Assembly (NCBI GenBank): GCA_030692515.1
Contig: JAUXZS010000028.1
Coordinates: forward strand, 310,001-374,000
From: Bacteroidota bacterium
GTDB taxonomy: Bacteria; Bacteroidota; Bacteroidia; B-17B0; Aurantibacillaceae
DNA length: 64,000 bases
Reading direction: 5' to 3'
Shown here: in pieces, positions 47,093 to 62,131 of the stretch
How the letters are laid out: each line of letters begins with the position of its first letter
Numbering within the stretch: position 1 is the first letter of the stretch
The notes under the pieces: generated by a model
What the model saw: only the letters and a program-made list of their open reading frames with translations
Told to the model about the DNA's origin: nothing
Database searches by the model: none
Made by a program: the position numbers and the translations under genes

Positions 47093-47124
47093 AAATAAAA
47101 TAGTAACGATAAAATTTGAGATAT

Positions 47125-47364
47125 ATGATGATGATGATGAAAGTGAGTATGAAAACAGGCATTAAGCCTTACACAAAAAAAGACCTCTCTGTTCTTTATG
47201 AATTAAGTCCGAGAGCGTTTTACACCATGTTTAAACCACATGAAGAAACAGTTGGTAAAAAATTAGGTCGTTACTATTCAGTACGTCAAGTAGAAACTAT
47301 TTTTGATAAACTCGGCTTACCTCCTTGTTTACTAAATGATGAATTTGAAAAGCAAAAATCTTAA
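47125..47364 (+). CDS. small HTH protein (excisionase-like), copy 1
   Basis: This protein has about 79 residues. The start is uncertain: five ATG codons in a row lie at 47125-47139 and another ATG is at 47149, and I take the first. The core KPYTKKDLSVLYELSPRAFY followed by YYSVRQVETIFDKLG is an HTH of the excisionase/MerR-N type: Y-T-K-K-(D/E)-L, a recognition helix, then a second helix. It is related to the protein at 48685-48903. It probably binds DNA of the element. Confidence 0.6.
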   Translation: MMMMMKVSMKTGIKPYTKKDLSVLYELSPRAFYTMFKPHEETVGKKLGRYYSVRQVETIFDKLGLPPCLLNDEFEKQKS

Positions 47365-47868: not shown

Positions 47869-47890
47869 TTTTATCCCTTCCCAAAAGTTT

Positions 47891-48030: not shown

Positions 48031-48110
48031 ACGCTCCCCTTTTTGTTGTCGGAAATTTGTCCTGTCAATTAGAAATCAACAGAAAAAATAATCATAAAAA
48101 AAAGAACATC

Positions 48111-48683
48111 ATGAGCGCAATCAAAAAAACAAATCCGAAAACAAAAAAAAGCAGCAAGGGAAAAGTAATTCAACTGAATGTTTTTCGTCAGCCCAATCAA
48201 ACAGAAACAGAACAATTAATCAAAGCAGTTTTAAACGTAGCACAAAGTGCCTTGTGGTTCAATAAAAATTTCAGCAGCAAAGAAAAAGAAAATTTAAAAG
48301 AACTCATCGCAGACCATTTTTACAATGGCAAAAATGAAAAAACAAATTTCAAAGAGCTCATCGAGCGCATCTGTTTAGCCAAGCGTTATGTTGCCCGCAA
48401 AAGAGGAAGATACATTTCCAAACCACAGGACTGGTTAAACATTCATTATCCATTAGGACTGGCAGGGACTGCTGCATGGTTAAAACAAGTAAACGAAGTA
48501 AGAAAAGATGTTCCTGAATACAATAAAGGAATTAAAACGTTTGCGACTGCTATTTTAAAATTCATTGAAAATCCGCAGGCAGTAACCTTTTACAGATACC
48601 GCAGATTGCTTATGGAACAAAAACAATTTGACCTTTTACAAATATTAAACAACACATTAATCAATCTTCAATACTCCCTGTAA
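48111..48683 (+). CDS. unknown basic protein of the element
   Basis: This protein has 190 residues from the ATG at 48111 (a longer frame starts at a TTG, 48057, inside the promoter region). The N-terminus is Lys-rich (KKTNPKTKKSSKGK), then helical with no catalytic motif; KRYVARKRGRYISKPQDWLN is a strongly basic loop. DNA or RNA binding is plausible. Its position right after the long 10-bp array makes it a candidate for the array-binding regulator or a replication initiator, but I do not recognise the fold. Confidence 0.5.
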   Translation: MSAIKKTNPKTKKSSKGKVIQLNVFRQPNQTETEQLIKAVLNVAQSALWFNKNFSSKEKENLKELIADHFYNGKNEKTNFKELIERICLAKRYVARKRGRYISKPQDWLNIHYPLGLAGTAAWLKQVNEVRKDVPEYNKGIKTFATAILKFIENPQAVTFYRYRRLLMEQKQFDLLQILNNTLINLQYSL

Positions 48684-48684
48684 C

Positions 48685-48903
48685 ATGTCAGAAGAAAAAA
48701 ATACCAACAACAGTTTTATGATCCGTGCCTATACAAAAAAAGAACTCAGGCAATTATACGGTATTCCTAAATCAACTTTTCTCAGATGGCTATTACCACT
48801 GCGAAGCAAATTAAAATCACAGCGCAGCAATTGGCTTACTGCTGCCGAAGTGGAATGTTTTGTAAAAGAATACGGATTCCCCGGAATAAAAAATTTCAGT
48901 TAA
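48685..48903 (+). CDS. small HTH protein (excisionase-like), copy 2
   Basis: This 72-residue protein is related to the one at 47125-47364. AYTKKELRQLYGIPKSTFLR gives the HTH, followed by SNWLTAAEVECFVKEYGFPG. It starts 1 bp after the preceding gene and ends 5 bp before the right 10-bp array. A small DNA-binding protein next to three copies of a phased site is a candidate regulator of that site. Confidence 0.6.
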   Translation: MSEEKNTNNSFMIRAYTKKELRQLYGIPKSTFLRWLLPLRSKLKSQRSNWLTAAEVECFVKEYGFPGIKNFS

Positions 48904-49046: not shown

Positions 49047-49232
49047 ATGGAAAAAAATCAAACAAGCGCAGACAGCACAAGCAACATGTTTTTAACCGGA
49101 ACCATATTGCTTGCCAACCTGGACTATTCAGGACTTGCCGATTATGCGCTCAAAGCACTTGTCGGAGGTGTGATTTGGATGTCCTTCAAAATAACAGGTG
49201 ATTATATCAGTGAACGATTAAAAAGGAAATAA
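49047..49232 (+). CDS. small membrane protein
   Basis: This 61-residue protein has one or two hydrophobic stretches (about 15-27 and 33-50, KALVGGVIWMSFKITGDYI) and a basic tail. It is preceded by AAAGGAGG seven bases before the ATG, an unusually good Shine-Dalgarno site for Bacteroidota. It is the first gene of the long plus-strand series and overlaps the next by 1 bp. It may be a virion membrane protein or holin-like. Confidence 0.6.
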   Translation: MEKNQTSADSTSNMFLTGTILLANLDYSGLADYALKALVGGVIWMSFKITGDYISERLKRK

Positions 49233-49723
49233 TGGAGACGTGGAAAAAAATAGCAGCAGGAACAGTCATCGGAGGCGTACTCATTGGCGGGACAATTTAT
49301 GTGGTTCGCTTAAATAAAATGAATGCAGAACTCGAAACTGTGCCGATGGTGAAAATTCACAAACTGGATTTATCAGGATTAACACTCAGAGTGGATGTGC
49401 AGTTAAAAAATCCAACACGCACTCCCTTTAAAATAAAGTTTCCTTTTATCAAGCTCGTGTACAAAAGCACAACCATTGGTTCTTCTCAGGTGGTGGACAA
49501 AGAAATTTCCATTCCTGCTTTTGGTGAAGCGGTAATAGAACAAATCATGATACGTGTTCCCCTAATGAATATTTTTTCACTCTCAGGAAGTTTAATCAGA
49601 GCCATACAAAACAAGGAGCCGGTGAAATTAAATGTGAACACTCTTACCACAATTGATTTGGGATGGAAAAAAGTTCCCTACACAAAAAGCGATACCATAA
49701 CACTTAGTCAGGCAAAAGCATAA
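49232..49723 (+). CDS. LEA14-like membrane-anchored protein
   Basis: This 163-residue protein has an N-terminal membrane helix (about 7-26), then a beta-sandwich with VKIHKLDLSGLTLRVDVQL and KNPTRTPFKIKFPFIKLVY, which matches the LEA14/water-stress (WHy) domain pattern of N-P-x-x-x-P-x-x-I/V. In bacteria this fold is found on exported and virion-like proteins, and its role is not settled. It overlaps both neighbours by 1 bp. Confidence 0.6.
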   Translation: METWKKIAAGTVIGGVLIGGTIYVVRLNKMNAELETVPMVKIHKLDLSGLTLRVDVQLKNPTRTPFKIKFPFIKLVYKSTTIGSSQVVDKEISIPAFGEAVIEQIMIRVPLMNIFSLSGSLIRAIQNKEPVKLNVNTLTTIDLGWKKVPYTKSDTITLSQAKA

Positions 49724-51528
49724 TGGAAAGAAGAGAAACAGTAAAAGTAAAAAGCGGAACGCAGTTCGACCATTTGTTTCCAAGGGCGATGCTGACCACC
49801 ATCACCAAAAAGAAAGGAGCAACAGTGGCAGACACCATTCGCTTTATTCCACAGGTGGTTCGTGAAACACTTTTTCATACCGAGAAAATCGCACGAGTGC
49901 TGAAACGAAAAACAACAGAGGAAACATGCAGAGCGATATGGCAATTTGTGTATGACCACATCGCTTACAAAAAAGATGAAGATGGAAAAGAACAAATACG
50001 CAGTCCCGCAAGAGCATGGCACGACAGAGCAAACATCCAAGGAGTAGATTGTGATTGTTACACGGTGTTTATCAGCAGCATTCTGAGCAATTTAAAAATC
50101 AGACATATCCTGCGCATCACCAAATACAAAGAGGATCACTTTCAGCACATCTACCCAATCGTTCCTTTAAACGGTGGCTCTTACATCACCATCGATTGTG
50201 TAGTGAACCATTTTAATTACGAAGAACCTTACAGTGAAAAAAAAGATACAACAATGGATTTAGAATATTTAAACGGGGTGAATGACCCCAACAGCAAAGC
50301 TACCGAACTCTTAGAGTTAGATGGTATCTACGATGATCAGGCAGCAATGGCTGAACTGGGAAAGCTCTTCAAACGCAAATCATCCGGCGGAGCTCCCAAA
50401 CAAAAAAGCGGTGGCTTTAAACAAACTTTTAAAAAAGGTGCGATTAAAGAAGCCTATAAAAAAGGAGGTATAAAAGCGATTGCAAAAATTGGCTTGCATG
50501 TTACCAACCGCTTAAACCCTGCTACGGTGCTTATTCGCAACGGTATTTTACTGGCCATGAAAACAAACATGTTCAAAATCGCTCAGCGATTACGCTATGC
50601 ATACTTGACCGAAGACAAAGCAAGAGAAATGGAAGTCGACATGGATAAATTTCAGAAGCTAAAAAAAGTAAATGAAAAACTGCAAAACATTTTTTATGGT
50701 GCAGGTGGTATTCCTGAAAATTATAAAAAAGCAATTCTTACCGGAAGAGGAAACAAAGATCATCAGGTAAACGGATTGGGTTATGTAGTCGATGACATGA
50801 GCGGCATCAATAAATATTCCACTACTGAAGAATTACTCGGAACGGATATTTATCAGGGAGAAGAACTACAAGTTCTGAATGGACTTGGAGAACCGTACTC
50901 AGCAGCAGCTTCCATCACAGCAGCCACAGGAATACTCGGTGCAATTGCAGGATTACTAAAAGGAATCGGCAGTCTTTTTCCAAAGAAGAACAAGGCATCC
51001 AAAGATTTTGAAGAAGGCGGTTCAGAATCCGGTGGAGAATCAGGCTCCAATTCAAACGAGTCAGGTGGCGGTGGAGAAAGCGATTCAGCAAACGATGGTG
51101 GCGGTTCAGGTGAGAGTGGTAACAACAATCAAATCACGATTAAGAAAAACACCACGCCATCAAAAAATGAAAGCTCCTCCAATGAAAGTTCCTCCAATGA
51201 AAATTCAGGTGGAGCAAATGAAGAAGGTGGTGGCGATTCAGGTGGTAATTCAAAAACAGCCAACAAAGAAAGTTCGGGAGGCGATCCAAAGCCCGAAGGA
51301 TTTTGGGAGAAGAATAAAAAATGGATTAAGCCTGTGGGCATTGGCGCAGCAGCACTTGGATTACTCTATGCAGGTTATCGCATGGTAACAGGAAAGAAAA
51401 AAGAAAATGCCAAACCTGCTTTGTCCGGAATACCAAAAAGCACAAAAAAAAAGCAAAGCAGGAAAGGAGGTAAAAAATCACCTATCAAAAGTAAAAAACA
51501 AAAAAAAGAAGCAGTCGCATTGCTTTAA
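49723..51528 (+). CDS. transglutaminase-like protein with Ser/Gly-rich region and membrane helix
   Basis: In this 601-residue protein an N-terminal transglutaminase-like fold has Cys 110 in GVDCDCYTVF, His near 142 in DHFQHIYPI, and Asp 158 in YITIDCVV, a plausible Cys-His-Asp triad. Then come a basic middle region (220-300), a low-complexity stretch rich in Gly, Ser, Asn and Glu (about 425-520), a membrane helix (about 540-560, VGIGAAALGLLYAGYRM) and a very basic tail. A surface-exposed enzyme or cross-linking structural protein with a membrane anchor would fit. It is the largest gene of the series. Confidence 0.65.
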   Translation: MERRETVKVKSGTQFDHLFPRAMLTTITKKKGATVADTIRFIPQVVRETLFHTEKIARVLKRKTTEETCRAIWQFVYDHIAYKKDEDGKEQIRSPARAWHDRANIQGVDCDCYTVFISSILSNLKIRHILRITKYKEDHFQHIYPIVPLNGGSYITIDCVVNHFNYEEPYSEKKDTTMDLEYLNGVNDPNSKATELLELDGIYDDQAAMAELGKLFKRKSSGGAPKQKSGGFKQTFKKGAIKEAYKKGGIKAIAKIGLHVTNRLNPATVLIRNGILLAMKTNMFKIAQRLRYAYLTEDKAREMEVDMDKFQKLKKVNEKLQNIFYGAGGIPENYKKAILTGRGNKDHQVNGLGYVVDDMSGINKYSTTEELLGTDIYQGEELQVLNGLGEPYSAAASITAATGILGAIAGLLKGIGSLFPKKNKASKDFEEGGSESGGESGSNSNESGGGGESDSANDGGGSGESGNNNQITIKKNTTPSKNESSSNESSSNENSGGANEEGGGDSGGNSKTANKESSGGDPKPEGFWEKNKKWIKPVGIGAAALGLLYAGYRMVTGKKKENAKPALSGIPKSTKKKQSRKGGKKSPIKSKKQKKEAVALL

Positions 51529-51558
51529 ACAAAAAGAAAAAATTAAAACAATAAAATC

Positions 51559-52185
51559 ATGAAGAAGAAAAATTCATACGAGAAAAAGGCGCAGAAAAAG
51601 CAATTACTGGAAGGTGTTGCAGCAGAGCATGCAAAAGGCGACTTCAAAAAAACAGCAATGGAAACAGGGCGTGACATCCTGATAGGTGCTGTTGGCGGAG
51701 GACTCGCAGGTGCAGTACTCGGACGCTCTTCGTTCTTGGTGGGAGTTGCAGTAACAGGTGTTGGTCATTACATGGGCAGTAGTGGCGCAGCAGCATTCGG
51801 TGTGGGCATGATGGCTTCGGGCGGTTATCAGGCAGTAGCGGGTGCAATGAACGGACCGGAGAAAGAAGGATTTGAAGGCGTGAAAGAACGCATGTCTGCT
51901 TTCAAAGACGAGTTCAAACGTAAACTGTTCCTTGACAAAATCATCAAGAGCAAAAAGAAAGAAGAAGAGAAATCCGAAGAAGGAACCAACGGCATGGGTG
52001 AAGTGCAATACTTTACTTATCCCAACGCCAAGGAACTGGAAGGAACGCAGGATCACTTGAAAACACTCGAGCAAATCGAAAAACAAGTGGAAGAGTCTGC
52101 GAAAAAGTTTGAAGCCAAACAATCTGTTTCAGGCGGATTGGAAGGAGAAATGGGAATGACGGACGTTAGCGACCAGAATTTCTAA
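51559..52185 (+). CDS. glycine-rich membrane protein
   Basis: In this 208-residue protein residues 38-100 form two hydrophobic Gly/Ala-rich segments (ILIGAVGGGLAGAVLGRSSF and later GAAAFGVGMMASGGYQAVAG), the glycine-zipper type that packs in membranes. It has a basic N-terminus and a charged, helical C-terminal half. It could be an internal-membrane protein of a virion. No known family recognised. Confidence 0.55.
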   Translation: MKKKNSYEKKAQKKQLLEGVAAEHAKGDFKKTAMETGRDILIGAVGGGLAGAVLGRSSFLVGVAVTGVGHYMGSSGAAAFGVGMMASGGYQAVAGAMNGPEKEGFEGVKERMSAFKDEFKRKLFLDKIIKSKKKEEEKSEEGTNGMGEVQYFTYPNAKELEGTQDHLKTLEQIEKQVEESAKKFEAKQSVSGGLEGEMGMTDVSDQNF

Positions 52186-52291
52186 ACAATACCTGAACTG
52201 AGTTTAGCAGAATCTAAATCCCTCTCCTGGTCGGAGCATCATCACATCACAAAAAAATAAAATAATTATTAATCCTAAAAACGAAAAAAAT

Positions 52292-53011
52292 ATGTTAGGC
52301 GTATTAGACGGAGTAGAAGAATACAACAATGCAGGAGCCTTATTAGGCTTGGATGCTGTTGACAATGATGAATTGCTTGGCGCATTAAGACGCATGAATC
52401 CCATTCAGCGTATGCGTACCATCAACAAACTGGCAAGCGGTGTTCCTGCAAGTAAAGGATCACGTGCTGAAATGGAAAAACATTTTAATGAACTGCCACA
52501 GCACATTAAAGATGGTTTAATGAAAGGAGAACTGCGTTTGGCTGATACTGTCATCTACAGCATCAAAGCGGTGAACTCTAAAACCATCAAGATGTTTGAA
52601 ACACAAGATGACAAAGAAGTGGGCTTGCGTAATATCAGTAACGCAAAATTGCCAAAGAACCAAGCTTTACTGGTAAGCGGAATTTTCTTTTTAGCGGGAA
52701 TCCCTGCTGAAGTGAACAAGGATAAAATCATCGGAACAAAATACGAAGGTATTGAAGAGTTCGCTGCCTTGTCAAACGGAGAGTTCTCTTTGAAGAGCAA
52801 CAAAAAAATCATCATGCCGGAAACCGTGAACACCATTTTTAAAACCAAAAACATGAACACCGTTCCTGTTGGGTATTACAAACTGGCAAATCCACGAATG
52901 ATCCACGATGACATTTTGATTGAAGCGACCATCGACTTAGGTTCATTGGAAGGCTTGGATGCAAAAACGCACGTGTACGTTGGATTGCACGGTACTATCA
53001 CTACTCCATAA
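52292..53011 (+). CDS. candidate major structural (capsid) protein
   Basis: This 239-residue protein has a helical N-terminus (1-85), then a beta-rich domain (about 90-239) with no membrane helix or enzymatic motif. Reasons to see it as the abundant structural protein are that it stands in its own unit, with a 106-bp 5' gap and an exceptionally stable hairpin pair right after its stop, and that it lies between membrane proteins and a row of small beta-rich proteins. A double jelly-roll fold cannot be shown from sequence alone, and 239 residues is short for that class. The assignment is inference. Confidence 0.45.
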   Translation: MLGVLDGVEEYNNAGALLGLDAVDNDELLGALRRMNPIQRMRTINKLASGVPASKGSRAEMEKHFNELPQHIKDGLMKGELRLADTVIYSIKAVNSKTIKMFETQDDKEVGLRNISNAKLPKNQALLVSGIFFLAGIPAEVNKDKIIGTKYEGIEEFAALSNGEFSLKSNKKIIMPETVNTIFKTKNMNTVPVGYYKLANPRMIHDDILIEATIDLGSLEGLDAKTHVYVGLHGTITTP

Positions 53012-53019
53012 CAGGAGTA

Positions 53020-53090
53020 CTGAGTCCGAAGTTACGCAGCCACATGTGCTGCGTAACTCGGAGGACTCAGGTGTCAGGGACACTTTTATT
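53020..53090 (+). terminator. double hairpin after the candidate capsid gene
   Basis: CTGAGTCC (53020-53027) pairs with GGACTCAG (53063-53070), and inside it GTTACGCAGC (53031-53040) pairs with GCTGCGTAAC (53048-53057): 18 bp in two perfect parts. A smaller hairpin, GTGTC/GACAC, and TTTTATT follow. It may act as a partial terminator or a stabiliser of the upstream mRNA. Confidence 0.85.
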
Positions 53091-53125
53091 AAAAAGAAAA
53101 AGTAAAACGATTAAAATAAAACAAG

Positions 53126-53512
53126 ATGTTAAAACCAGTAAAAAAACGATTTGATATTTCCATTGCGGAAGCAAACAAGTCGGTCAACAAAACCTTTGAG
53201 TTGGATAAAAACATCAAAGCAGTAAAAGGTGTGCTGATTACTTCGGACAAAGACGACTTGCTGTATTTCAGAGGAACACAAAAAATCGAGATCAACAAAG
53301 AAGAATTCTTTCCTGAAAACTACGAAAGCAAATTATTAATGTCAGGCGTGAACGTAGCACCCAAACAACGCTACTATGATTTAGGAAATGTAAATCCGGG
53401 AAATGGTTTAGTGAAATTAACTTTTACCGATACCGATGATGTAAGAACACCTTTTGTTCCCTATCGTGTATCGCTTTACCTGGACTGTGAAATGGAGGAC
53501 GAGTTATCATGA
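53126..53512 (+). CDS. small beta-rich protein, possible virion component
   Basis: This 128-residue protein is predicted mostly beta, with KGVLITSDKDDLLYFRGTQK and a repeated alternation of hydrophobic and polar residues to the end (YRVSLYLDCEMED). No catalytic motif. It overlaps the next gene by 4 bp (ATGA). Its size and strand pattern are compatible with a single jelly-roll minor capsid or spike-base protein; this is inference. Confidence 0.45.
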   Translation: MLKPVKKRFDISIAEANKSVNKTFELDKNIKAVKGVLITSDKDDLLYFRGTQKIEINKEEFFPENYESKLLMSGVNVAPKQRYYDLGNVNPGNGLVKLTFTDTDDVRTPFVPYRVSLYLDCEMEDELS

Positions 53513-54117
53513 GAGAACAGGTTTTAATTACTCAGGTAAAAATTACAAAGGCAGGACAGGTCAATCATTTTCAGGTCAGGCTTCCGAAAAATTCAATTCG
53601 CATCATCGGAATTGAACTGGGCGGGAGATTAATTAAAAAACCTAAAACAGATGGAACGGTTGGAGGAACTGGAAACGGTGCTGAAGCAGGAACAGGAAAC
53701 GGAACAGCAGAAGGAACAGCAGGAGAAGTTATTCCAAGAGAACAGGTTTTTGAAAAACAAATGCAGAGAGAAGAAATCATACGTTCCTTATTTCCGTTCA
53801 AACGCATTATTCTCATTGGTGAACTAAAACTGCAAAGCTGCGAACAGGCAAATATATTTTTTGCTTCACATTTTCAGCTTGATGAAAATTTAGGTGCAGG
53901 AGATTATTCTCAGAACCAATACTGGAAAGCCAATCTGTTTACCCATCAGATAAAAGCCGAAGAGGACATTGTAATTGTGGATGGGGATAGCACCATCATA
54001 GCAGGGATTTTTAAAGACCGCCTCGGAGAATTAAACAAATCGGATTTTGAATACATCGTGAATGTTTACGTGTGGCTTGAAATTCAGGAAGAAAAAACGA
54101 AAGGAGATAAATCATGA
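53509..54117 (+). CDS. beta-rich protein with Gly/Thr-rich insert
   Basis: In this 202-residue protein two beta-rich halves are separated by a flexible insert of about 30 residues (GTVGGTGNGAEAGTGNGTAE). The start VLITQVKITKAGQVNHFQVR resembles strands of virion proteins. It overlaps both neighbours by 4 bp, so the three proteins are coupled and probably form one assembly. Confidence 0.45.
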   Translation: MREQVLITQVKITKAGQVNHFQVRLPKNSIRIIGIELGGRLIKKPKTDGTVGGTGNGAEAGTGNGTAEGTAGEVIPREQVFEKQMQREEIIRSLFPFKRIILIGELKLQSCEQANIFFASHFQLDENLGAGDYSQNQYWKANLFTHQIKAEEDIVIVDGDSTIIAGIFKDRLGELNKSDFEYIVNVYVWLEIQEEKTKGDKS

Positions 54118-54443
54118 ACATAGCACTCGCTCTTGAGTATATCCCTCGCAGAATGCAGGAACTCGGATACGGAAAAGATTATTACATACGCTTTCGCCAT
54201 TTGGTATTGCAACCCAACGAGCATGTAGATATTGAAGCCTACAATCAGTTTTACATTCTCATCGGTGAACCTGAAAGCCTGAACATCACTTCTGAATTCG
54301 GAATCTTTGATTTGAGTGTAGACAGAACCAATGAGCAGTTGTATGAACATCAGGGATACATCAGCATTCAAAATTATTTTGCCTCTGTGAATCATGTACG
54401 TTTCATTCAGGTAATACCAAAACATATCGCATTAAAAAAATAA
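54114..54443 (+). CDS. small beta-rich protein
   Basis: This 109-residue protein is mixed beta (DYYIRFRHLVLQPNEHVDIE, FYILIGEPESLNI) with no motif of known function. It is the third gene of the coupled set 53126-54443. Family not recognised. Confidence 0.45.
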   Translation: MNIALALEYIPRRMQELGYGKDYYIRFRHLVLQPNEHVDIEAYNQFYILIGEPESLNITSEFGIFDLSVDRTNEQLYEHQGYISIQNYFASVNHVRFIQVIPKHIALKK

Positions 54444-54447
54444 AACA

Positions 54448-55284
54448 ATGGCAAAAATTATTGAACCCTATAACCCGCAGAAAATTGAAATCATCAGACG
54501 CATGCTTGAAAAACAAGCTGCCAAAGGAAGTCCCCTTGCCTATGAAATTTTTGTGGACAATTTTAAAGTAGTCATGAAAACAACTGACCTCACAGAGTTT
54601 GAAGGCTATGAGGACATCATGAACAACGAAACAAAATACATCCGCATCAATGTGTTCAACTCTCCGACTGAAACCATCAGCCACACCAAGTATGTGTTTG
54701 AAATGGAAGAAGTAAAAAAGCCCGAAGTGCAGAAACCTTTAGGAGAAGTAGTCGATATCAATTCCAAAATAAAAGAATCGATTGCTGTGGAGCGTGAACG
54801 TTGGGACAAGGATCAACTCATCAAAGAACTGGATCGCACCAAACTGGAACTACAGGAAGCCGAAGAGTATATCGATGATTTACAGAGTCAACTCGATAAA
54901 TCCAAAACCAAAGCAAACCATTGGGGAAAACTGGATTTAGGATTACTGGCAGGAGCAGCACTCGAAGGTGTAGTTCGCAAAAATCCACAGTGGCTCACCA
55001 AAGTTCCGGCATTGCAAGAACTGGCAGGCGTAATTGTAGAAGAGAACATGAACGGTAAGCAGATACCCGCACAAACGGAAGTAACTCAGGCAAGTTTTAC
55101 AAAAGGTAGCGATACTCCAACGCTTAGTGAAGAAGAGCAAAGCTATCTTGATTTTGGAAAAGAACTCTCTGAAAATTTTGATGATGCAGAACTTTCCATT
55201 CTCTACAAAATCATTGGAGAATTAAAACGTGATACTTCCAAGCTTCAAATCGTAGCGGAACTTTTAAACGTTCCGGCAGGGTAA
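54448..55284 (+). CDS. coiled-coil protein
   Basis: This 278-residue protein has an N-terminal globular part (1-90), a long heptad coiled coil (about 105-155, IKELDRTKLELQEAEEYIDD), a small hydrophobic segment (KLDLGLLAGAALEGVVRK, about 167-184) and an acidic tail. It could be a scaffold or fibre protein. It starts 4 bp after the preceding gene. Confidence 0.5.
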   Translation: MAKIIEPYNPQKIEIIRRMLEKQAAKGSPLAYEIFVDNFKVVMKTTDLTEFEGYEDIMNNETKYIRINVFNSPTETISHTKYVFEMEEVKKPEVQKPLGEVVDINSKIKESIAVERERWDKDQLIKELDRTKLELQEAEEYIDDLQSQLDKSKTKANHWGKLDLGLLAGAALEGVVRKNPQWLTKVPALQELAGVIVEENMNGKQIPAQTEVTQASFTKGSDTPTLSEEEQSYLDFGKELSENFDDAELSILYKIIGELKRDTSKLQIVAELLNVPAG

Positions 55285-55372
55285 AAAAAACAAATTATTC
55301 ATCACACAGTTTTAAAAATTCTGTCCGCAAAAATCGGATGGCTTAGAACAGAACTGCATAAATAACAAAGCA

Positions 55373-55555
55373 ATGGCAAAATTCAATTACAAATTCAACA
55401 TCGAAGCTCCTACAGAAAAAGAAGCCGATGTAAAAATGGAAGCACTCACCGTGCTTGCTTCCCGCCTCAGTGCAAAGGAACTGCATAAACTGGCGCATGT
55501 GGTAGTGAACGATCCGGTGAAAACTGCAATGGCAAAAGCAGGATTAGGATTATAA
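55373..55555 (+). CDS. small conserved-looking protein
   Basis: This 60-residue protein reads FNYKFNIEAPTEKEADVKME followed by a helix (ALTVLASRLSAKELHKLAHV) and a short Gly-rich end. The arrangement of one strand pair plus one helix is common among small proteins of Bacteroidota mobile elements, but no function is known to me. The start is the only ATG in frame. Confidence 0.5.
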   Translation: MAKFNYKFNIEAPTEKEADVKMEALTVLASRLSAKELHKLAHVVVNDPVKTAMAKAGLGL

Positions 55556-55574
55556 AAAAATCAAGTAGAAAAAA

Positions 55575-56303
55575 ATGCAAACTGAAATCACAACATATCA
55601 AACCCCAACGGAAACAAGTCCTGCTATTGCTGTGCAGCCCACACAGCAGGATAAGGAAGCGTGGACGCTGAAAGAAAAAATACTTTTCTCGGTGCTTGGT
55701 GTTGTTGTCGTTGGAGGTACAATCTATATCGGCAGAAAAATTATTCTTAATAAGATAGCCAACAAAGAAGAGAACAAAAGTTTTGAAGATGGCTCATCCG
55801 CCACTTATGCTAAACAAATAAAAATGGCTTTTGAGAATGATGGATGGCCGGGAACAGATGAAGATGCATTGCGCTATACCCTTCGGCAAATACCAAGTAA
55901 GGAAGAGTTTAATAAAGTGGTTAAGTCCTATCAGAAACTCTACAACGGTAATCTCATCAAAGACATGAGCGATGAGCTCACATCCACCGAGTACAATGAG
56001 ATGCTTCAAATTCTTGCAGCAAAGCCGGAGAAAAAAGGACAAGCACCAAGTGCCATTGTTTACAGTGCATGGGCAAAACGCTTAAAGGCTGCTTTTGATA
56101 TCAGCTATGGCTTTTTGCCCGGCACAGATGGCCCTGCCATTGAAGCGGTCTTTAATGAAATACCTACGCAGACTGCATTTATTAAAGTGGCAGTGGAATA
56201 CAAAAAATTATACGGTAAGAATTTACTCGATGATTTAAAAAGTGAAAGTGAATTCGGACAGTACGATGCGTGGATGAAAATCATCACAACAAAACAAAAA
56301 TAA
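55575..56303 (+). CDS. membrane-anchored annexin-like repeat protein
   Basis: This 242-residue protein has one membrane helix (about 34-53). Two repeats of about 75 residues follow. The first has GTDEDALRYTLRQIPSKEEF, SYQKLYNGNLIKDMSDELTS and EYNEMLQIL. The second has GTDGPAIEAVFNEIPTQTAF, EYKKLYGKNLLDDLKSESEF and YDAWMKII. This matches the annexin repeat pattern (G-T-D-E/x, then Y-x-x-x-Y/L-x-x-x-L-x-x-D-L/M-x-x-E). Annexins bind lipids through calcium, and two repeats instead of four are seen in bacterial cases. In this setting it may attach a virion membrane or cell envelope. Confidence 0.62.
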   Translation: MQTEITTYQTPTETSPAIAVQPTQQDKEAWTLKEKILFSVLGVVVVGGTIYIGRKIILNKIANKEENKSFEDGSSATYAKQIKMAFENDGWPGTDEDALRYTLRQIPSKEEFNKVVKSYQKLYNGNLIKDMSDELTSTEYNEMLQILAAKPEKKGQAPSAIVYSAWAKRLKAAFDISYGFLPGTDGPAIEAVFNEIPTQTAFIKVAVEYKKLYGKNLLDDLKSESEFGQYDAWMKIITTKQK

Positions 56304-56304
56304 A

Positions 56305-57189
56305 ATGGAGCAGACAATTACACAACAGCAATCATCGGGTAAAGGAAAAAAGATTTTACTCATTGGCTTAGGAATAGCAGCAACAGGAACGCTTGGATAT
56401 TTTGGATACCAATGGTATGCCAAACGCAAACAAACAACAACCGATGCAGGCGATGGATCTGATAATTCATTTATTCCACCACCTAAAAATAATTTTTCTG
56501 TACCCTCTGCTCCAAAACGCAACGATGATTTTCCTTTAAAGAAAGGCAGTAAAGGTGCAAGAGTAAAACAGGTGCAGGAAGTGCTGATTGCAAAATTAGG
56601 AAGGGATGCCCTTGGCAAAGCAGGTGCGGACGGAGACTTTGGAAGCAAAACAGAAGCCGCTCTTATCAAAGCGGGATATCCAAATACAATTGATGAAAGC
56701 ACCTTCAATGTGATGACACAGGGTGAAGGAATGGATGTCTCGGCAACTGCAAAAGAATTATACAGTGCAGCCATCATTAAAAACTTTACCGGAGCAATCA
56801 AAGCCCTACAAAAATTAAAATCAAAAGAAGATTACACCACAGTCTCTGATGATTTTAAAACCAACTACCGCATCGGTGGGGTTCGCCAAACACTTGTCAA
56901 CGGAATGCTAAACAGCTTTACTGATGAAAAACAAAAGCAGGCGATCCGTTTACAGTTCACAAGAATGGGACTTGGCTACGATGGAAAGAAATGGTCACTC
57001 TCAGGGCTTGATACATCAAGCATCATCACCAAGCAGGAAACATTGGTGTGGGTGAATCCCAAAACAGCGATTAAAGTTCCTGCAAACATGGTGCTTGGTA
57101 AAGAAGTCGCTCAACGAGGCAAGCATACTTTATTCGAGAACAAAGGGAAACACTTTTTAGTGGACACCCAAAGCATAACATTTATTTAA
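56305..57189 (+). CDS. membrane-anchored peptidoglycan-binding protein
   Basis: This 294-residue protein has a membrane helix at about 14-35 (KILLIGLGIAATGTLGYFGY), a Pro/Asn-rich linker, then a peptidoglycan-binding type 1 domain (about 72-130; KGSKGARVKQVQEVLIAK and ADGDFGSKTEAALIKAGYP). The remaining 150 residues are helical, with a short beta C-terminus. It starts 1 bp after the annexin-like gene. With the amidase just downstream it probably helps the particle engage or cross the cell wall. Confidence 0.72.
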   Translation: MEQTITQQQSSGKGKKILLIGLGIAATGTLGYFGYQWYAKRKQTTTDAGDGSDNSFIPPPKNNFSVPSAPKRNDDFPLKKGSKGARVKQVQEVLIAKLGRDALGKAGADGDFGSKTEAALIKAGYPNTIDESTFNVMTQGEGMDVSATAKELYSAAIIKNFTGAIKALQKLKSKEDYTTVSDDFKTNYRIGGVRQTLVNGMLNSFTDEKQKQAIRLQFTRMGLGYDGKKWSLSGLDTSSIITKQETLVWVNPKTAIKVPANMVLGKEVAQRGKHTLFENKGKHFLVDTQSITFI

Positions 57190-57202
57190 ACAGCATTTTA
57201 AA

Positions 57203-57640
57203 ATGAACAATCCAAGAAACATAAAATACATCGTGGTGCATTGCACAGCAACGCCCACCAATACCACTCTTGAATCCATCAAACGTTTTTGGAAAGAGAA
57301 TCGTGGTTGGGGAGATACTCCCGGTTACCATTATTTTATTCAGCGTGACGGTACAGTTGTGCAACTGCTTGATGAAAAGAAAAACAGTTATGGAGTTTAC
57401 AAGCACAACTCTGAATGTATCAGTATCGCTTATTTAGGAGGAATTGATAAAGAAGGAAAAGCGCTTGACAACAGAAGCGATGCTCAGAAGCATGCCATGT
57501 TTGACAAAATCGTGGAGCTCACCGAACGCTATCCCAAAGCAGAAGTACTTGGTCACCGTGATTTTGCGGGAGTGAAAAAAGCCTGCCCCTGCTTCGATGT
57601 AAAAACATGGTTAAAGAATTACGAACCCGATTTAAAATAA
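57203..57640 (+). CDS. N-acetylmuramoyl-L-alanine amidase (T7 lysozyme-like)
   Basis: This 145-residue enzyme is a complete amidase_2 domain: IVVHCTATP with zinc ligand His 13, GYHYFIQRDGTV, LGHRDF with His 118, and KKACPCFDV with Cys 128. It cleaves the bond between muramic acid and the stem peptide. Length and motifs are those of T7 lysozyme-type endolysins. There is no signal peptide, so it needs a holin or a virion setting to reach the wall; a holin-like gene lies at 58389. Confidence 0.88.
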   Translation: MNNPRNIKYIVVHCTATPTNTTLESIKRFWKENRGWGDTPGYHYFIQRDGTVVQLLDEKKNSYGVYKHNSECISIAYLGGIDKEGKALDNRSDAQKHAMFDKIVELTERYPKAEVLGHRDFAGVKKACPCFDVKTWLKNYEPDLK

Positions 57641-57648
57641 GCTGAGTA

Positions 57649-58386
57649 ATGATCCTGAAAAAATTAAGAGCCATACTAAAGCACAAAAACTTTAAACTCA
57701 ATACACGCCCCTACGAATTAAACATCGTTGGTTTGCGTTCCGAAAGCACAATCCCGAATCGCTTTGATGATGAGATTCATGTGTTCTATAAGGTTAGCCC
57801 AATCAAATGGAACTATCATGTCTTCAAAGCCACCACCGATCCAGGAACGTTTTGGCTTCGCAACCCGATGCAGGAACAGGGTACAGCTATCCTTGCCCAA
57901 GGACAGTATGTGAATGCGTATGGTCTTGGTTTACACAGAGGACAATACTTAGCACTGGTTCAAAAAAAGCCTGTAGCAGTCATCCGTGATTATGACCGCA
58001 ACGCTACACTGGATTTTTATAATGGTACAAAAACAAATGGCATGTATGGAATCAATATCCACAGAGCCAATAAAACAGGTACAACTAAAACAGTAGATAA
58101 AAATTCAGCGGGGTGCCAGGTGTTTGAAAATGCTGAATTGTTCACTCAATTCCTTGCGCTGTGCATGCGTCACCGCCAACGTTATGGCAATGATTTTACT
58201 TATACCCTGATTGATTTCAGAGCAGTAAAACGAGAAACCTACAGACGCATCGCCATCGGTACAGGAATCGTGGGCTTGCTTGCACTGGGTTATGTCCTTT
58301 ACAGCGGAAGCGACAAACTGAAAAACATAGCAGAACAAATCAGCGAATCATTTAATCAACTATTTAAAACAAAAACAAATTCCTAA
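57649..58386 (+). CDS. L,D-transpeptidase-like (YkuD-type) protein with C-terminal membrane helix
   Basis: This 245-residue protein has GINIHRANKTGTT (His 138) and KNSAGCQVFE (Ser 153, Gly 155, Cys 156), which follow the H-x(14-17)-[ST]-x-G-C pattern of L,D-transpeptidase active sites. A membrane helix follows at about 213-231 and a basic tail. It would act on peptidoglycan peptides at the periplasmic side. A similar motif occurs in several phage-like elements with unknown substrate, so a hydrolytic role is possible. Confidence 0.6.
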   Translation: MILKKLRAILKHKNFKLNTRPYELNIVGLRSESTIPNRFDDEIHVFYKVSPIKWNYHVFKATTDPGTFWLRNPMQEQGTAILAQGQYVNAYGLGLHRGQYLALVQKKPVAVIRDYDRNATLDFYNGTKTNGMYGINIHRANKTGTTKTVDKNSAGCQVFENAELFTQFLALCMRHRQRYGNDFTYTLIDFRAVKRETYRRIAIGTGIVGLLALGYVLYSGSDKLKNIAEQISESFNQLFKTKTNS

Positions 58387-58388
58387 AG

Positions 58389-58616
58389 ATGAAACACATC
58401 GTTCAGCAAGTATTAAAAGACAAGGATGGTAATTTCTCATTGCGTGAAGTAGTCACTTTGATTTATGTGTTCATGTCCATCATCAGTTGGATTGCACAAC
58501 AGTTCTTTGGACAGCAGATACCGGAGTACATGTTCTATGCATTTATCAGCATGATTGGAGCAGGAACATTTGGTTACTCTCTTGAGAAAAAGTCATCCGA
58601 TTTAAAAGACAATTAA
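58389..58616 (+). CDS. holin-like small membrane protein
   Basis: This 75-residue protein has two membrane segments (about 21-40 VVTLIYVFMSIISWIAQQFF and 47-66) with a short loop and a charged C-terminus (LEKKSSDLKDN). Size, topology and position 2 bp after a wall-active enzyme and 15 genes into a structural series match holins. No sequence family is recognised. Confidence 0.55.
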   Translation: MKHIVQQVLKDKDGNFSLREVVTLIYVFMSIISWIAQQFFGQQIPEYMFYAFISMIGAGTFGYSLEKKSSDLKDN

Positions 58617-58645
58617 TTAATCATTCTAAAAAAACAGAAAAAAAT

Positions 58646-59293
58646 ATGAAACGAGTTCCCATAGTAATTTTATTTACTGCATTACTGACAGCAGCTATTC
58701 TATTTATCGGCACCTGCAATTCCAATCCGCAAAAAGACAAGCCGGATAAAACTGAGCTCATTAAATCACAGCAGAAAGCGCAAAGCATCGACAACAATTT
58801 TAAAACCGAGTTTGAATTTTTGCAGATAAAAAGCGATTCCCTGCAAAAGGAATTATCGCTTACTCAAAGCAAATTGAAAGCAACAAAGTTTAAATTGAAT
58901 CAGTCGCAACTTTCTCTGCTTGCTTTGGCACAAAAACAAAACGATACAGTTTCTGTTGCGCAGCAACTCATCGATTGTGATTCATTAAAAACTCAAACGC
59001 TTTCTTATGTGGCTTGGGTGGACAGTGTACAATGCCAGTATGAAAACAACATCCTTCAGTTAAATGATTTGGTGGCGATTAAAGATTCTCAGGTGGTAGT
59101 TTGTAAAGCATCTTTCTTACAACTTAAAAACGTACTGGATGAAAACTTTATCCGTGAACAAAAATTAACGGATGATTTAAACACCGCTTATAAATCCCTG
59201 CGGAAAAAAGTAATACAGAATAAACTGCTTGCGGGAGGAATGCTTGTTTTATCAGGAATCGCCACAACACTTTACATCAACGCTAATAAATAA
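58646..59293 (+). CDS. spanin-like coiled-coil membrane protein
   Basis: This 215-residue protein has an N-terminal hydrophobic segment (about 5-23), a long coiled coil (about 40-190) with many Ser, Lys and Gln, and a second hydrophobic segment near the C-terminus (about 192-212, KLLAGGMLVLSGIATTLYIN). This layout resembles Rz-type or unimolecular spanins, which fuse inner and outer membrane in lysis. A Cys at residue 24 could be a lipid site, but the lipobox is imperfect. Confidence 0.45.
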   Translation: MKRVPIVILFTALLTAAILFIGTCNSNPQKDKPDKTELIKSQQKAQSIDNNFKTEFEFLQIKSDSLQKELSLTQSKLKATKFKLNQSQLSLLALAQKQNDTVSVAQQLIDCDSLKTQTLSYVAWVDSVQCQYENNILQLNDLVAIKDSQVVVCKASFLQLKNVLDENFIREQKLTDDLNTAYKSLRKKVIQNKLLAGGMLVLSGIATTLYINANK

Positions 59294-59469
59294 TGAAAGA
59301 AAAAACAATTGTATCATCCGTAACACTTGCTGCTTCCCTGATTAGCTATTTCTACGCTAAAGGCATGCAAAAAGATGCTGTGCCTTACGTCATGATTGGC
59401 GGATTCATCGGTGCAGTTGTCGGGGAAGTAATCGTAGGTGCAATTAAAGACAGTAATAATAACAACTAA
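59293..59469 (+). CDS. small glycine-rich membrane protein
   Basis: A 58-residue frame starting with the ATG that overlaps the preceding stop by 1 bp (TAATG). It has two hydrophobic stretches (SSVTLAASLISYFYAKGM and VMIGGFIGAVVGEVIVGAI) with a glycine-zipper look. The coupling and clean reading frame support it as a real gene. A holin or virion membrane protein is possible. Confidence 0.6.
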   Translation: MKEKTIVSSVTLAASLISYFYAKGMQKDAVPYVMIGGFIGAVVGEVIVGAIKDSNNNN

Positions 59470-59484
59470 AAAAAGGAGGATTAA

Positions 59485-60045
59485 ATGGCAACAGAAATCA
59501 TCAACAATGGCTCAAGCCTGAAAATTGTAACGGATAACGCTCCACGTTTTATCCTAAAGAATCAAATCAAAGAAGTGGAAGTGGTAAGAGATACCATTAT
59601 CAAAATCGACATCGGACAGGGTGCGCTCTACAATGTGTTTGTGGATCAGGCAGAAGTAACGACTCCTGTGAGTGCAACTGTTGAAGAGTTGCGTGATAAA
59701 ATCATGGAGATGCTGCAAAGTGCAGAGCATTCAGGTTTGGCAACGGAAATCAAACAAACAGAGGGCAATGCTGAAATCGTGAATTTAAAAAACAGCATGA
59801 ATGAAATGAAGGACAAAGTAAATGCTTTGAACGACAAATTATTCTACGAACCAAAACTGGTGGATGAAAGCAATGCAAATCTTGTCTTCAAAGGTTTTGC
59901 TGTTCCGGGAGCAAAAACCGATGAGCCTGTTTGGGCGGTGTTAAAGGTAACCAATACCAAAGGAGTGCTTTCTTACCAGTGGGCGGATGGCAACAAAAAC
60001 TTCGATAATGTTTGGGACAACCGTAAAGTGCTTGTTTACAGCTAA
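59485..60045 (+). CDS. putative tail-spike-like or surface protein
   Basis: In this 186-residue protein a beta N-terminal domain (1-60) is followed by a short coiled coil (about 95-125, IVNLKNSMNEMKDKVNALND) and a beta C-terminal domain ending VLKVTNTKGVLSYQWADGNK. A stalk between two beta domains fits a trimeric spike or fibre. A strong Shine-Dalgarno site, AAAAAGGAGG, precedes the ATG. It ends the structural series just before a terminator. Confidence 0.5.
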   Translation: MATEIINNGSSLKIVTDNAPRFILKNQIKEVEVVRDTIIKIDIGQGALYNVFVDQAEVTTPVSATVEELRDKIMEMLQSAEHSGLATEIKQTEGNAEIVNLKNSMNEMKDKVNALNDKLFYEPKLVDESNANLVFKGFAVPGAKTDEPVWAVLKVTNTKGVLSYQWADGNKNFDNVWDNRKVLVYS

Positions 60046-60058
60046 AATTAAAATCATT

Positions 60059-60090
60059 AAAGCCGGACTTGATTGTCCGGCTTTTAATTC
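60059..60090 (+). terminator. rho-independent terminator
   Basis: AAAGCCGGAC and GTCCGGCTTT form a 10-bp stem with a 6-base loop and a short T run. It nearly repeats the stem of the terminator at 47842 and closes the structural series. Confidence 0.85.
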
Positions 60091-60097
60091 AAAAGCG

Positions 60098-62131
60098 ATG
60101 AAAAGAAAAATAAATCATAAAGGAGAATTTGTGTTTGCCTTGGGAGAAGTTCCGAAGATAAATGTTCCTGAAATAAAACTGCGTTACGTTTCATCGGCAA
60201 AAAAATCTTCTTTTGAAAAAATCACAAAATCTCAGGATGCAGAAAAAATATTCAGACAAATCATCGGCAAAAATGAAATGGAATTGCGGGAACAAGTGGT
60301 GATTCTTTTTTTAAACAATGCCAACAAAGTAATCGGCTATTACCGTCACACCACAGGCGGTATTTCCAGTTCTATTGTTGACACACGTTTGATACTTGCT
60401 ACTGCTTTAAAAAGTTTAAGTGTTGGAATTATTCTCTGCCACAATCATCCAAGCGGAAATATTAAACCAAGTGATGCAGATATTAAACTAACTGCGAACT
60501 TGAAAACAGCAGCTAAACAAATGGATATTCAGCTTTTGGATCACATCATCATCACCAAAGAAAGTTATTATTCATTTGCCGATCAGGGCGATTTAAGTTT
60601 AAGCGGAATAAAACAGGTAAGCAAAAAAGAAATTGTGTACCTCGATTTATTCAGTGGTACTGGCGGTTTTGCCAAAGGATTACAAAACGCAGGATTTTAT
60701 TTTAAAAAACATTATTACTCGGAGATTGATAAATACTCCGTGGCTAACTATCAATATAATTTCAGACATGCGAAAAACCTCGGTGACATCACAAAAATTA
60801 AAGGCAGGCAAATTGAAAAACCAAACATCATCACATTTGGTTCACCCTGCCAAGATATTTCCATTGCTGGCAAACGCAAAGGGCTTAAAGCAAACAGAAG
60901 TGGACTCTTTTTTGAAGCAGTTAGAATCATCGCTGAATGCAGACCCGATGTTTTTATCTTTGAAAACGTCAAAGGGCTTTTCTCCAGTAACCAAGGCAAA
61001 GACTTTGAGGTCGTACTTCAAACGCTTGCCAACCTTGGGCTTTATGACATCCAATGGCAACTGCTTAATACTTGCTGGTTTTTACCCCAAAATAGAGAGC
61101 GGATATACTTTGTCGGATGTCTTAGAGGAAAACCCACACCACAAATATTTCCTTTCGGAGAAAGCAATGAAGGGAGTACTTCGATCTATCAAAAAGAATT
61201 TGCAGAAAAAAAAGTAAGTCCAACAATAGATACAAAAGTTGGAGAATCTTCTCATCGTTCGCCCTACGTTTTGCATTGGAAAGGTTCAAAAGAAAAATGG
61301 AAAAATGAACCGATGAAAAATGCTCCTGCATTATCTACTCAACAAGACTGGATTAGAAATCCTTTAATAGTTAAAGGTGCAGCTTATCGTACCCGAAATT
61401 ATGCCGGACAAAAAGGAAAAATTGAATTAAGAAAGGATACCAATGCCAATCAACTTACCACTGCACAAAAAGACAGCATGGTTCTTTTAAGGGAAATAAC
61501 TAAAAATAAATCAGAAGGTGATCGTGTTTATGAATCTAAAAACGGACTTTCCAAAACCTTAAAATCCAACGGTGGCGGTATGGGTGCTAAAACAGGTTTG
61601 TACATGATTAACAAATCTGTCAGGCGACTGACTCCAAATGAGTGTGAACGTTTACAGGGATTTCCTGATGACTGGACAAAAAATGGAATTTTTATTGTTC
61701 CTGAAGCTACCACCAAAGGTTACGCTACTGCACAAAAAGGTGACAGTATTAATCTCTCTTACTTAGAAGCTAACAAAAGGAGAGGACGAGTTGGAAAAAG
61801 CATTGCTAATACTATTGATACAGGAGTACAACAATACACACTTCAAAAAAGTAATCTCAGAAGCTTAACACCAACAGAGTGTGAACGCTTACAAGGCTTT
61901 AAAGATGATTGGACAAAATCAGGATTATTTAATAATGGTGTAGAAGCTATATCCGATTCACAGCGGTACAAGATGCTTGGCAATGCAGTGAGTGTTCCTG
62001 TTGTGGAAGCCATCGCTTTGCGACTGTTAGGTTTAAGTGTGCAAGAAATTATTATTGAATCAGATGAACACATAAAACTCCTGACGCTTGAACTGGAATT
62101 AGAATTATTGAATTTAAAACACGCTGCTTAA
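60098..62131 (+). CDS. RadC-like JAB domain fused to DNA cytosine-C5 methyltransferase
   Basis: This protein has 677 residues from the ATG at 60098, just after the terminator (a longer frame begins inside the previous gene). Residues about 45-170 form a RadC/JAB-type metalloprotease-like domain with HNHPSG at 115-120 and SDAD at 125-128. From 178 a C5 methyltransferase follows: DLFSGTGGF, SPCQ with catalytic Cys 251, FEN near 289 and PQNRERIYF near 330. The C-terminal part is long and carries two copies of R-x-L-T-P-x-E-C-E-R-L-Q-G-F, near residues 509 and 588, only the second followed by MLGNAVSVPV. I know of no standard family with this fusion. Confidence 0.82.
   Translation: MKRKINHKGEFVFALGEVPKINVPEIKLRYVSSAKKSSFEKITKSQDAEKIFRQIIGKNEMELREQVVILFLNNANKVIGYYRHTTGGISSSIVDTRLILATALKSLSVGIILCHNHPSGNIKPSDADIKLTANLKTAAKQMDIQLLDHIIITKESYYSFADQGDLSLSGIKQVSKKEIVYLDLFSGTGGFAKGLQNAGFYFKKHYYSEIDKYSVANYQYNFRHAKNLGDITKIKGRQIEKPNIITFGSPCQDISIAGKRKGLKANRSGLFFEAVRIIAECRPDVFIFENVKGLFSSNQGKDFEVVLQTLANLGLYDIQWQLLNTCWFLPQNRERIYFVGCLRGKPTPQIFPFGESNEGSTSIYQKEFAEKKVSPTIDTKVGESSHRSPYVLHWKGSKEKWKNEPMKNAPALSTQQDWIRNPLIVKGAAYRTRNYAGQKGKIELRKDTNANQLTTAQKDSMVLLREITKNKSEGDRVYESKNGLSKTLKSNGGGMGAKTGLYMINKSVRRLTPNECERLQGFPDDWTKNGIFIVPEATTKGYATAQKGDSINLSYLEANKRRGRVGKSIANTIDTGVQQYTLQKSNLRSLTPTECERLQGFKDDWTKSGLFNNGVEAISDSQRYKMLGNAVSVPVVEAIALRLLGLSVQEIIIESDEHIKLLTLELELELLNLKHAA

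Follow-up and report, generated by a model that had tools for sequence, protein, structure and literature searches.

A conserved gene module of Bacteroidota as the candidate structural and lysis part of integrated, tailless, single-jelly-roll virus-like elements

Singelaviria-type viruses encode a packaging ATPase. Among them, the Simuloviridae are described as tailless viruses of halophilic archaea with an internal membrane, two single-jelly-roll capsid proteins and circular genomes of 16–19 kb (PMC12642351). Finnlakeviridae, represented by FLiP and the temperate PhiCjT23 of Flavobacterium, infect Bacteroidota and combine a lipid membrane with a double-jelly-roll capsid protein and a rolling-circle replication protein (PMC5894146, PMC9719478); the available part of one of these accounts gives the FLiP and Odin groups as being without a packaging ATPase (PMC5894146). 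Charybdis elements are small, circular and marine, with one clade integrated in archaea. Their description covers a conserved structural module with a single jelly roll, an accessory module with methyltransferases and a candidate capsid protein (Gp3) that is a double Greek-key protein, and in the portion available it recognises no replication gene, terminase or portal (PMC12324425). Here we describe a gene module in a 64,000-nucleotide stretch of a Bacteroidota genome (the window; C58:310001–374000 of a 4.33 Mb, 68-contig assembly), which we read, with a probability of about 60%, as the structural and lysis part of an integrated element making a tailless, membrane-containing particle.

The module shares features with each of these systems. 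Singelaviria have two vertical single-jelly-roll major capsid proteins, to which two predicted single jelly rolls of the module (the products of genes 52292 and 53126, genes being named by their start in the window) may correspond; it differs in that its 52292 and 49723 proteins have no match in phage records, no FtsK/HerA-type ATPase was found near its copies and a relative that could be delimited spans 32.2 kb. With Finnlakeviridae it shares Bacteroidota hosts, a putative lipid membrane, a putatively temperate habit (as in PhiCjT23) and the absence of a detected packaging ATPase, but the 52292 protein has one jelly roll (a single eight-strand domain, residues 82–239) where theirs has two. 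SPV1 of the Portogloboviridae (PDB 6oj0) is among the best single-jelly-roll matches (Z 8.5 for 52292 and 8.2 for 53126), although it is an archaeal virus and the likeness is at the fold level only. Set beside Charybdis as described, the module is likewise part of a two-module mobile element with a single jelly roll and methyltransferases, whereas its lysis set has no counterpart in the accessible part of the Charybdis account (PMC12324425). Our best reading is that the module represents a new lineage of tailless virus-like elements that are integrated in the host genome and would build particles from single-jelly-roll proteins. We prefer it to a particle that is domesticated or needs a helper, and to an apparatus of the cell envelope. 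In its support, the module is collinear across loci, the 52292 and 53126 proteins are predicted jelly rolls, the best structural matches of 52292 are capsid proteins, a hairpin is conserved after 52292, the amidase and a second wall enzyme are of phage type, related elements show a tRNA-end serine recombinase, a unit shared between species and a recurrent right-end 16-mer, and defence genes lie inside one delimited element and beside the window module.

Pattern scanning across 84,980 species genomes yielded 179 confirmed stretches that code for a 52292 relative, and the best 80 were kept as loci. Fifty of these that were at least 20 kb long, together with two IMG/VR loci, make up the 52-locus set used below; it includes near-duplicates (L091 and L093 are 99.99% identical) and its members are not all independent. 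Orthologues of 12 to 17 (median 15) of 17 tested genes were present per locus, and gene order was collinear in 52/52 loci with full flanks. Counts over 17 genes omit 54114, for which the picker took an antisense open reading frame (ORF); this family was recovered by position and aligned. All 18 small plus-strand ORFs that had been called between 49047 and 60045 were present there (Table 1), and because their orthologues are collinear in related loci, we regard them as real genes, as first observed. The original prediction closed the module at 60045, but the gene run continues to 64796 through a right-hand slot encoding a RadC–C5 methylase, a Dam-like methylase and an AAA protein. On the other side, regulators at 46010–48903 accompany the module in many loci.

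Named carriers include Chitinophaga, Niastella, Puia, Flavisolibacter and Sediminibacterium, and most carrier records are metagenome-assembled genomes (MAGs) labelled Bacteroidetes, Bacteroidia or Chitinophagaceae. With the window genome included in both sets, the 52292 protein had a match in 34/100 genomes of a set of relatives and the jelly-roll gene in 3/296 genomes of a phylum sample. Four module copies occur in the window genome: the window copy has 17/17 tested genes and two others have 16 and 14. The fourth (L027:1525–4116; G000:C68 ~265525–268116) has 10/17; it ends after the annexin gene, lacks the lysis genes and terminates at a minus-strand block carrying another serine recombinase.

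Gene 52292 encodes the candidate major capsid protein. Its AlphaFold model, built from 55 relatives (64–97% identity), had a mean pLDDT (predicted local distance difference test) of 74.5, with very low confidence at residues 1–24, helices to residue 78 and eight strands at 82–239. The 15 best PDB chains in Foldseek were viral capsid proteins (from EhV-201, SGIV, PBCV-1, SPV1 and the FLiP penton); four chains passed E 0.001, and non-capsid proteins appeared from rank 16 onward. VIA-align gave Z 8.3–8.6 to PBCV-1, EhV-201, SPV1 and SGIV, the SPV1 alignment (Z 8.5) extending over 146 residues (3.8 Å), and the named top matches in the viral library BFVD were mostly capsid proteins of large DNA viruses. 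As a predicted fold, the jelly roll of 52292 is well supported; from fold, conservation and context, we infer a capsid function. The 53126 protein was modelled as a confident eight-stranded jelly roll (51 relatives, 37–90% identity; pLDDT 94.2), with VIA matches to SPV1, HHIV-2, cyanophage Pam1 and Faustovirus (Z 8.2) and STIV (7.8). Four proteins had been named as jelly-roll candidates, and both that were folded bore this out as predicted single jelly rolls. When profiles were compared, no common ancestry was detected between 53126 and either 53509 (probability 5.8%) or 52292 (0.8%), and PDB sequence searches with profiles A1, A3, A5 and A6 returned chance-level matches or none.

The strong hairpin noted 3′ of 52292 was also confirmed: z was −8.2 in one run of 60 shuffles and −5.4 in another. 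Across loci, the 100 bases past the stops of 52292 orthologues had a median z of −4.3 and fell below −2 in 73/84 cases (dinucleotide shuffles), while 20 other window-copy genes between 49047 and 64916 (54114 not included) gave −2.5 or higher. The hairpin sequence diverges among distant relatives and the strong structure is retained. It may provide 3′ protection or partial termination and thereby raise capsid output.

Other module proteins point to the membrane and the cell wall. We scored a hydrophobic 19-mer in each orthologue of 17 proteins and found one in most orthologues of six, in keeping with the membrane proteins expected: 49232 (68/89), 49723 (94/102), 55575 (61/85), 56305 (54/77), 58389 (51/57) and 58646 (62/62). 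Minorities were positive for 57649 (31/67), 51559 (30/93), 59293 (21/53) and 49047 (13/69). Wall-binding and wall-cutting proteins, also predicted, were recovered by family scans: 56305 matches the endolysin family phrog_1493 over its wall-binding part (2.1e-6), and 57203 is an Amidase_2 protein (2.5e-18; phrog_822, 1.9e-48). The 57649 protein, which by its motif we take to be L,D-transpeptidase-like, finds matches in 24 of the 50,697 phage records, including the Bacteroides phages crAss002 and DAC16-23 and Pseudoalteromonas phage ACA1; in the 20 records listed of these 24 it is 36.7–47.4% identical over 68–76% of its length. The scans gave no significant family match for the proteins first labelled holin, spanin and stalk, and these labels are guesses.

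Annexin domains have been described in Bacteroidetes, some with a transmembrane region, in an account whose available text names no mobile element and does not contain the word 'phage' (PMC3894181). In the 296-genome sample, by contrast, all four annexin places fall inside the present module. Matches to Annexin (PF00191) occurred in three genomes, which are also the three with the jelly-roll gene, and each place lies 3.2–4.5 kb downstream of that gene (L137–L140; G074:C3:99854, G000:C25:68955, G130:C1:2918469 and G074:C3:204949); the Pfam cut-off was passed by 2/4 of them. This search was not exhaustive, because three of the four copies in the window genome were unlisted, although the window copy passes by hmmscan.

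Related loci indicate how the module is carried. We searched 102 regions, most of them too short to reach an end, with four recombinase queries and found close full-length homologues of one large serine recombinase in six (query included). Its 3′ end overlaps or abuts a tRNA gene in 5/6 regions (Leu, Cys, Arg, Leu and Leu); alongside the C68 serine recombinase of the window genome, a tRNA gene was looked for and not found. Tyrosine recombinases take its place in G070, where one adjoins tRNA-Ser, and in L130 and L132, where they lie downstream of the module. Two MAGs of separate species, L116 and L118, start to match at the tRNA-Leu gene, no match preceding it, and stay 94.6% identical for 10.7 kb. 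L058, L061 and L063 are 94–95% identical up to a shared point 50–69 bases past the AAA gene. At this right-end point a 16-mer recurs, GTTCTTTGA[A/C]ATATTG, which the 4.33 Mb genome contains exactly just twice, plus once with a single mismatch. Both exact copies lie just downstream of the AAA gene of a module copy, one of them the window copy (window-equivalent 64810–64825; L010:810–825). Candidate roles for the 16-mer are a recombinase core or a regulatory site.

The G015 element could be delimited to ~32.2 kb (contig C1, ~167,401–199,586) because it has both the left tRNA-end recombinase and the right-end point with the 16-mer. It contains the recombinase, an SMC-like protein, HsdR, HsdS, HsdM, regulators, the module, Dam and AAA, and it carries a type I restriction system (HsdR, HsdM and HsdS). 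Defence cargo is not universal, since L116 and L118 lack it in the stretch from recombinase to module. In related loci, the module is part of an integrated mobile element with a recombinase at its target gene and defined ends.

At the window copy, guanine–cytosine (GC) content rises at ~28.5 kb, next to a tyrosine recombinase pair (28877–30690). No convincing repeats marked the ends of this copy, repeats of at least 14 bases were not found at the tRNA ends of G031 or G070, and short searches gave no convincing second attachment-site copy. The interval between the recombinase pair and the module (33672–42624) encodes a PD-T4-1 homologue, two C5 methylases with an HNH protein, a CBASS-type (cyclic-oligonucleotide-based anti-phage signalling system) cyclase with a four-transmembrane effector and a second SMODS cyclase.

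The flanks have features of their own. At 19699–30690, ORFs 21629, 26010 and 27707, presumably Rhs-like, share a nearly identical stretch and differ at their C-terminal ends; they are bounded by oppositely oriented tyrosine recombinase pairs (19699–21594, plus; 28877–30690, minus), and the arrangement resembles a cassette array of Rhs tips. Past the right end of the element, GC content is 0.32 at 64.5 kb and 0.38 at 67.5 kb, then 0.25–0.30. Very large genes and then others, mostly of low GC, follow there (L010/L011, equivalent 66940–92378); we take them to be Rhs-like and then prepilin and type II secretion-like. A tyrosine recombinase at window-equivalent 95350–96609 was considered as the integrase and dropped, because the right-end 16-mer at 64810–64825 comes first and is followed by low GC and long minus-strand Rhs-like genes. 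Among the regulators, the 46010 protein matched the NCBIfam spr1629-type repressor model (3.9e-36; 124.9 bits, under the model cut-off of 335), and Pfam and NCBIfam scans gave no match for the 48057 protein.

Table 1 Features of the window copy and the evidence for each (HTH, helix-turn-helix; MFE, minimum free energy).
Feature	Coordinates	Strand	Evidence
XRE/ImmA-type repressor	46010..47092	+	best match in 29/52 loci
putative excisionase-like small protein, HTH by eye	47116..47364	+	44/52 loci
conserved 208-aa protein, function not assigned	48057..48683	+	upstream of module in 43/52 loci
second small protein, putative HTH by eye	48685..48903	+	best match in 13/52 loci
small, partly hydrophobic protein	49047..49232	+	37/52 loci
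membrane-anchored LEA_2-like beta protein	49232..49723	+	Pfam LEA_2 0.0028, below cut-off; 50/52 loci
transglutaminase-like domain protein	49723..51528	+	52/52 loci; long low-complexity region with LxG motifs, hydrophobic segment
glycine-rich protein	51559..52185	+	51/52 loci
candidate major capsid protein	52292..53011	+	low-confidence N-terminus with ALLGL motif, helical arm, single jelly roll 82–239
RNA hairpin after capsid-like gene	53012..53111 (100-base stretch)	+	MFE −37.5 kcal/mol
second jelly-roll protein, minor capsid or penton candidate	53126..53512	+	49/52 loci
beta-rich structural candidate	53509..54117	+	45/52 loci, median identity 31%
beta-rich structural candidate	54114..54443	+	20 sequences aligned, 41–88% identity
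coiled-coil-like protein, LxG motifs in relatives	54448..55284	+	52/52 loci
small conserved 60-aa protein	55373..55555	+	37/52 loci
membrane-anchored annexin-repeat protein	55575..56303	+	Pfam Annexin 2.2e-7, 31.3 bits, cut-off 25; 50/52 loci
membrane-anchored peptidoglycan-binding protein	56305..57189	+	PG_binding_1 0.018, below cut-off
N-acetylmuramoyl-L-alanine amidase	57203..57640	+	45/52 loci
phage-type wall enzyme	57649..58386	+	phrog_3000 2.4e-32; phrog_33083 endolysin 4.3e-14
putative holin-like small membrane protein	58389..58616	+	hydrophobic 19-mer
putative spanin-like membrane coiled-coil protein	58646..59293	+	62/62 orthologues hydrophobic
putative small membrane protein	59293..59469	+	34/52 loci
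conserved protein, putative fibre candidate by eye	59485..60045	+	43/52 loci; DUF7700 5.2e-4, below cut-off
RadC domain fused to C5-cytosine methylase	59987..62131	+	RadC 79–201, methylase 219–589
Dam-like DNA methyltransferase	62131..62997	+	phrog_56 1.1e-74; 19/52 loci
AAA ATPase	62997..64000	+	gene extends past window to window-equivalent 64796

Two sets of results weigh against a tailless virus-like element, the first concerning packaging, replication and distribution. A packaging ATPase, which according to the original prediction could lie beyond 64 kb, was not found there either with FtsK/HerA-type models; in the whole genome, FtsK_SpoIIIE occurred only at C18 and DUF87/HerA-type matches only at C66, contigs without module copies. 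Among gene clusters common to at least six of 82 loci, which span ~10 kb on each side and miss genes running off a locus end (large helicase genes, for example), a Walker A motif was always present only in the AAA protein (11 loci). Its relative in L058 matches phrog_6891 'ATPase' (1.3e-19) and, weakly, the DnaB family, not a packaging family. Family scans of module proteins recognised no replication protein; a DNAG_N-like match, below cut-off, lies further left (32656–33261). At 32.2 kb, the delimited element is large for a motorless tailless particle. Only two module loci were present in 2.9 million IMG/VR contigs, and tblastn of the 50,697 phage records with 52292, a distant 52292 homologue or 49723 gave no match. 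Searches of PLSDB (72,556 plasmid records) with 52292 and of a viral-contig collection with 49723 were likewise without a match, and no description of the module was found in literature titles and abstract openings within the collection and terms searched.

These results would also suit a particle of viral origin that serves its host as transfer agent, satellite or bacteriocin-like weapon and is not an autonomous virus, either filled by a helper or host motor or free of DNA. Such a particle would account for a conserved module in which no motor or replication protein is recognised, for its near absence from viral collections, and for up to four copies per genome, one of them truncated; the defence cargo is as in phage satellites, which carry such genes. 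A domesticated particle would, however, have no need of a recombinase at a tRNA site, found with the module in several loci, or of a module present as a unit in different species, and most satellites do not encode capsid-like proteins of their own, as this module does. We give this account limited credence. The proposal that the locus is an integrated tailless virus or a derived particle is partly supported, in its jelly rolls and not in its packaging ATPase, and either of the two would fit these results.

The second set concerns the folds. Query-normalised TM-scores of the 15 top Foldseek chains for 52292 were ≤0.37, and the non-viral PHM domain reached Z 8.2 in VIA. For 53126, no Foldseek match passed 0.001, and non-viral proteins ranked first in both searches (PHM in VIA, 8.9; TasA in Foldseek); fold-match lists do not exclude families absent from them. 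TasA is a biofilm fibre, and the endospore appendage Ena3A was also listed for 53126; taken with the several membrane-anchored wall proteins, these matches would fit an envelope-spanning apparatus or surface fibre, not a capsid, carried as integrative-element cargo. We consider this unlikely, as the 15 top PDB rows for 52292 are capsid proteins and the amidase and phage-shared wall enzyme point to phage lysis.

The remnant of an ordinary tailed prophage, with which the phage-type lysis genes and a weak match of 54448 to a virion structural protein family (phrog_26878, 0.0061) would agree, is very improbable and was dropped, because 20 module and slot proteins scanned against PHROGs gave no terminase, portal, tail or HK97 capsid family at E 0.001 or better, and 52292 and 49723 lack matches in phage records. 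That no terminase, portal or tail tube gene is seen had been noted at first; a tail assembly family matched 51559 at 0.47. That no relaxase is seen had also been noted and held for PF03432 (MobA), the sole relaxase family searched, which had no match in the whole genome; an integrative conjugative element was dropped on this result.

The enrichment of a short LxG[L/I] motif in module proteins, including the transglutaminase-like 49723 protein, is new here. Against DUF553, 49723 scored 17.7 bits as a whole and 20.7 over its first 200 residues (cut-off 20.5), and DUF553 was matched by 11/21 members of its family. Its homologues conserve Cys110 (95/97), His142 (95/97) and Asp158 (96/97) and, amid variable sequence, L183 and G185 (97/97), G351 (96/97) and G569 (97/97). 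L[SN]G[LI] was counted 54 times among the 253 module proteins of 15 loci, where shuffling predicts 6.1, and 14 times among 176 flank proteins, a mild excess too (8.3 predicted); these loci were bounded by hand, the proteins are homologous and hence not independent, and module proteins below 60 aa and flank proteins below 150 aa were dropped. In the window module (17/18 proteins, without 54114) it occurred five times against 0.37 expected, a count reached in 0/1500 shuffles; in two flank sets the counts were 3 (1.4 expected) and 4 (2.0 expected). As the motif was spotted by eye and then tested on the same sequences, the P values are optimistic, and some matches fall within folded domains.

In 52292, A16, L17 and G19 are invariant in 56 sequences despite the very low model confidence there; the N-terminal motif was not found in 6/100 capsid homologues. 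An LSGI motif lies at residue 205 of the 59987 protein, at the RadC/methylase joint, and an LxG motif lies near the N-terminus of a strawberry-notch-type helicase, presumably DarB-like, in the right-hand slot of another copy. The adenovirus protease consensus, (M/I/L)XGX-G, is similar. The 49723 protein is a candidate maturation peptidase and LxG[L/I] may be its cleavage site; a docking motif would fit equally.

In the working that we propose for a tailless virus-like element, 52292 would form the major capsid protein, with one jelly roll and produced in excess, and minor capsid or vertex parts would come from 53126 together with 53509 and 54114. The 49232, 49723, 55575 (annexin repeats) and 56305 proteins, and 57649 in about half of its orthologues, would be held in an internal membrane, from which they expose domains that bind and cut the wall, much as PM2 and PRD1 do. 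The amidase and the holin-like and spanin-like proteins may release the particle. Several related elements lie at tRNA genes next to a large serine recombinase, some of them, such as G015, with anti-phage cargo between recombinase and module, and methylases and helicases of the right-hand slot may protect incoming DNA. DNA would enter the particle without a self-encoded FtsK/HerA-type motor, and 49723 may use its transglutaminase-like domain to process proteins of the module at LxG[L/I] sites.

A broader reading, which we put forward as doubtful, is a high-rank new lineage of tailless membrane viruses of Bacteroidota that would package ~32 kb without a motor of their own, carry whole defence systems from one tRNA site to another and mature by LxG[L/I] cuts made by the transglutaminase-like cysteine peptidase. 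The same cuts would free anti-restriction enzymes packed inside the particle, namely the strawberry-notch/DarB-like helicase and the RadC–methylase, and annexin-repeat proteins of Bacteroidota would have a main home in this lineage.

Cultured carriers are available in Flavisolibacter nicotianae X7X (L077, 15/17 genes) and Chitinophaga eiseniae Ak56 (L101, 13/17). If our reading is true, capsids are made by a common kind of bacterial mobile DNA that the virus collections searched hardly contain; such elements occur at tRNA sites of different species and can bring restriction systems or other defences with them. Single-jelly-roll tailless viruses would be extended to mainstream Gram-negative hosts, the problem of how large DNA is packaged with no recognised motor of its own would arise, and some Bacteroidota annexins would gain a context.

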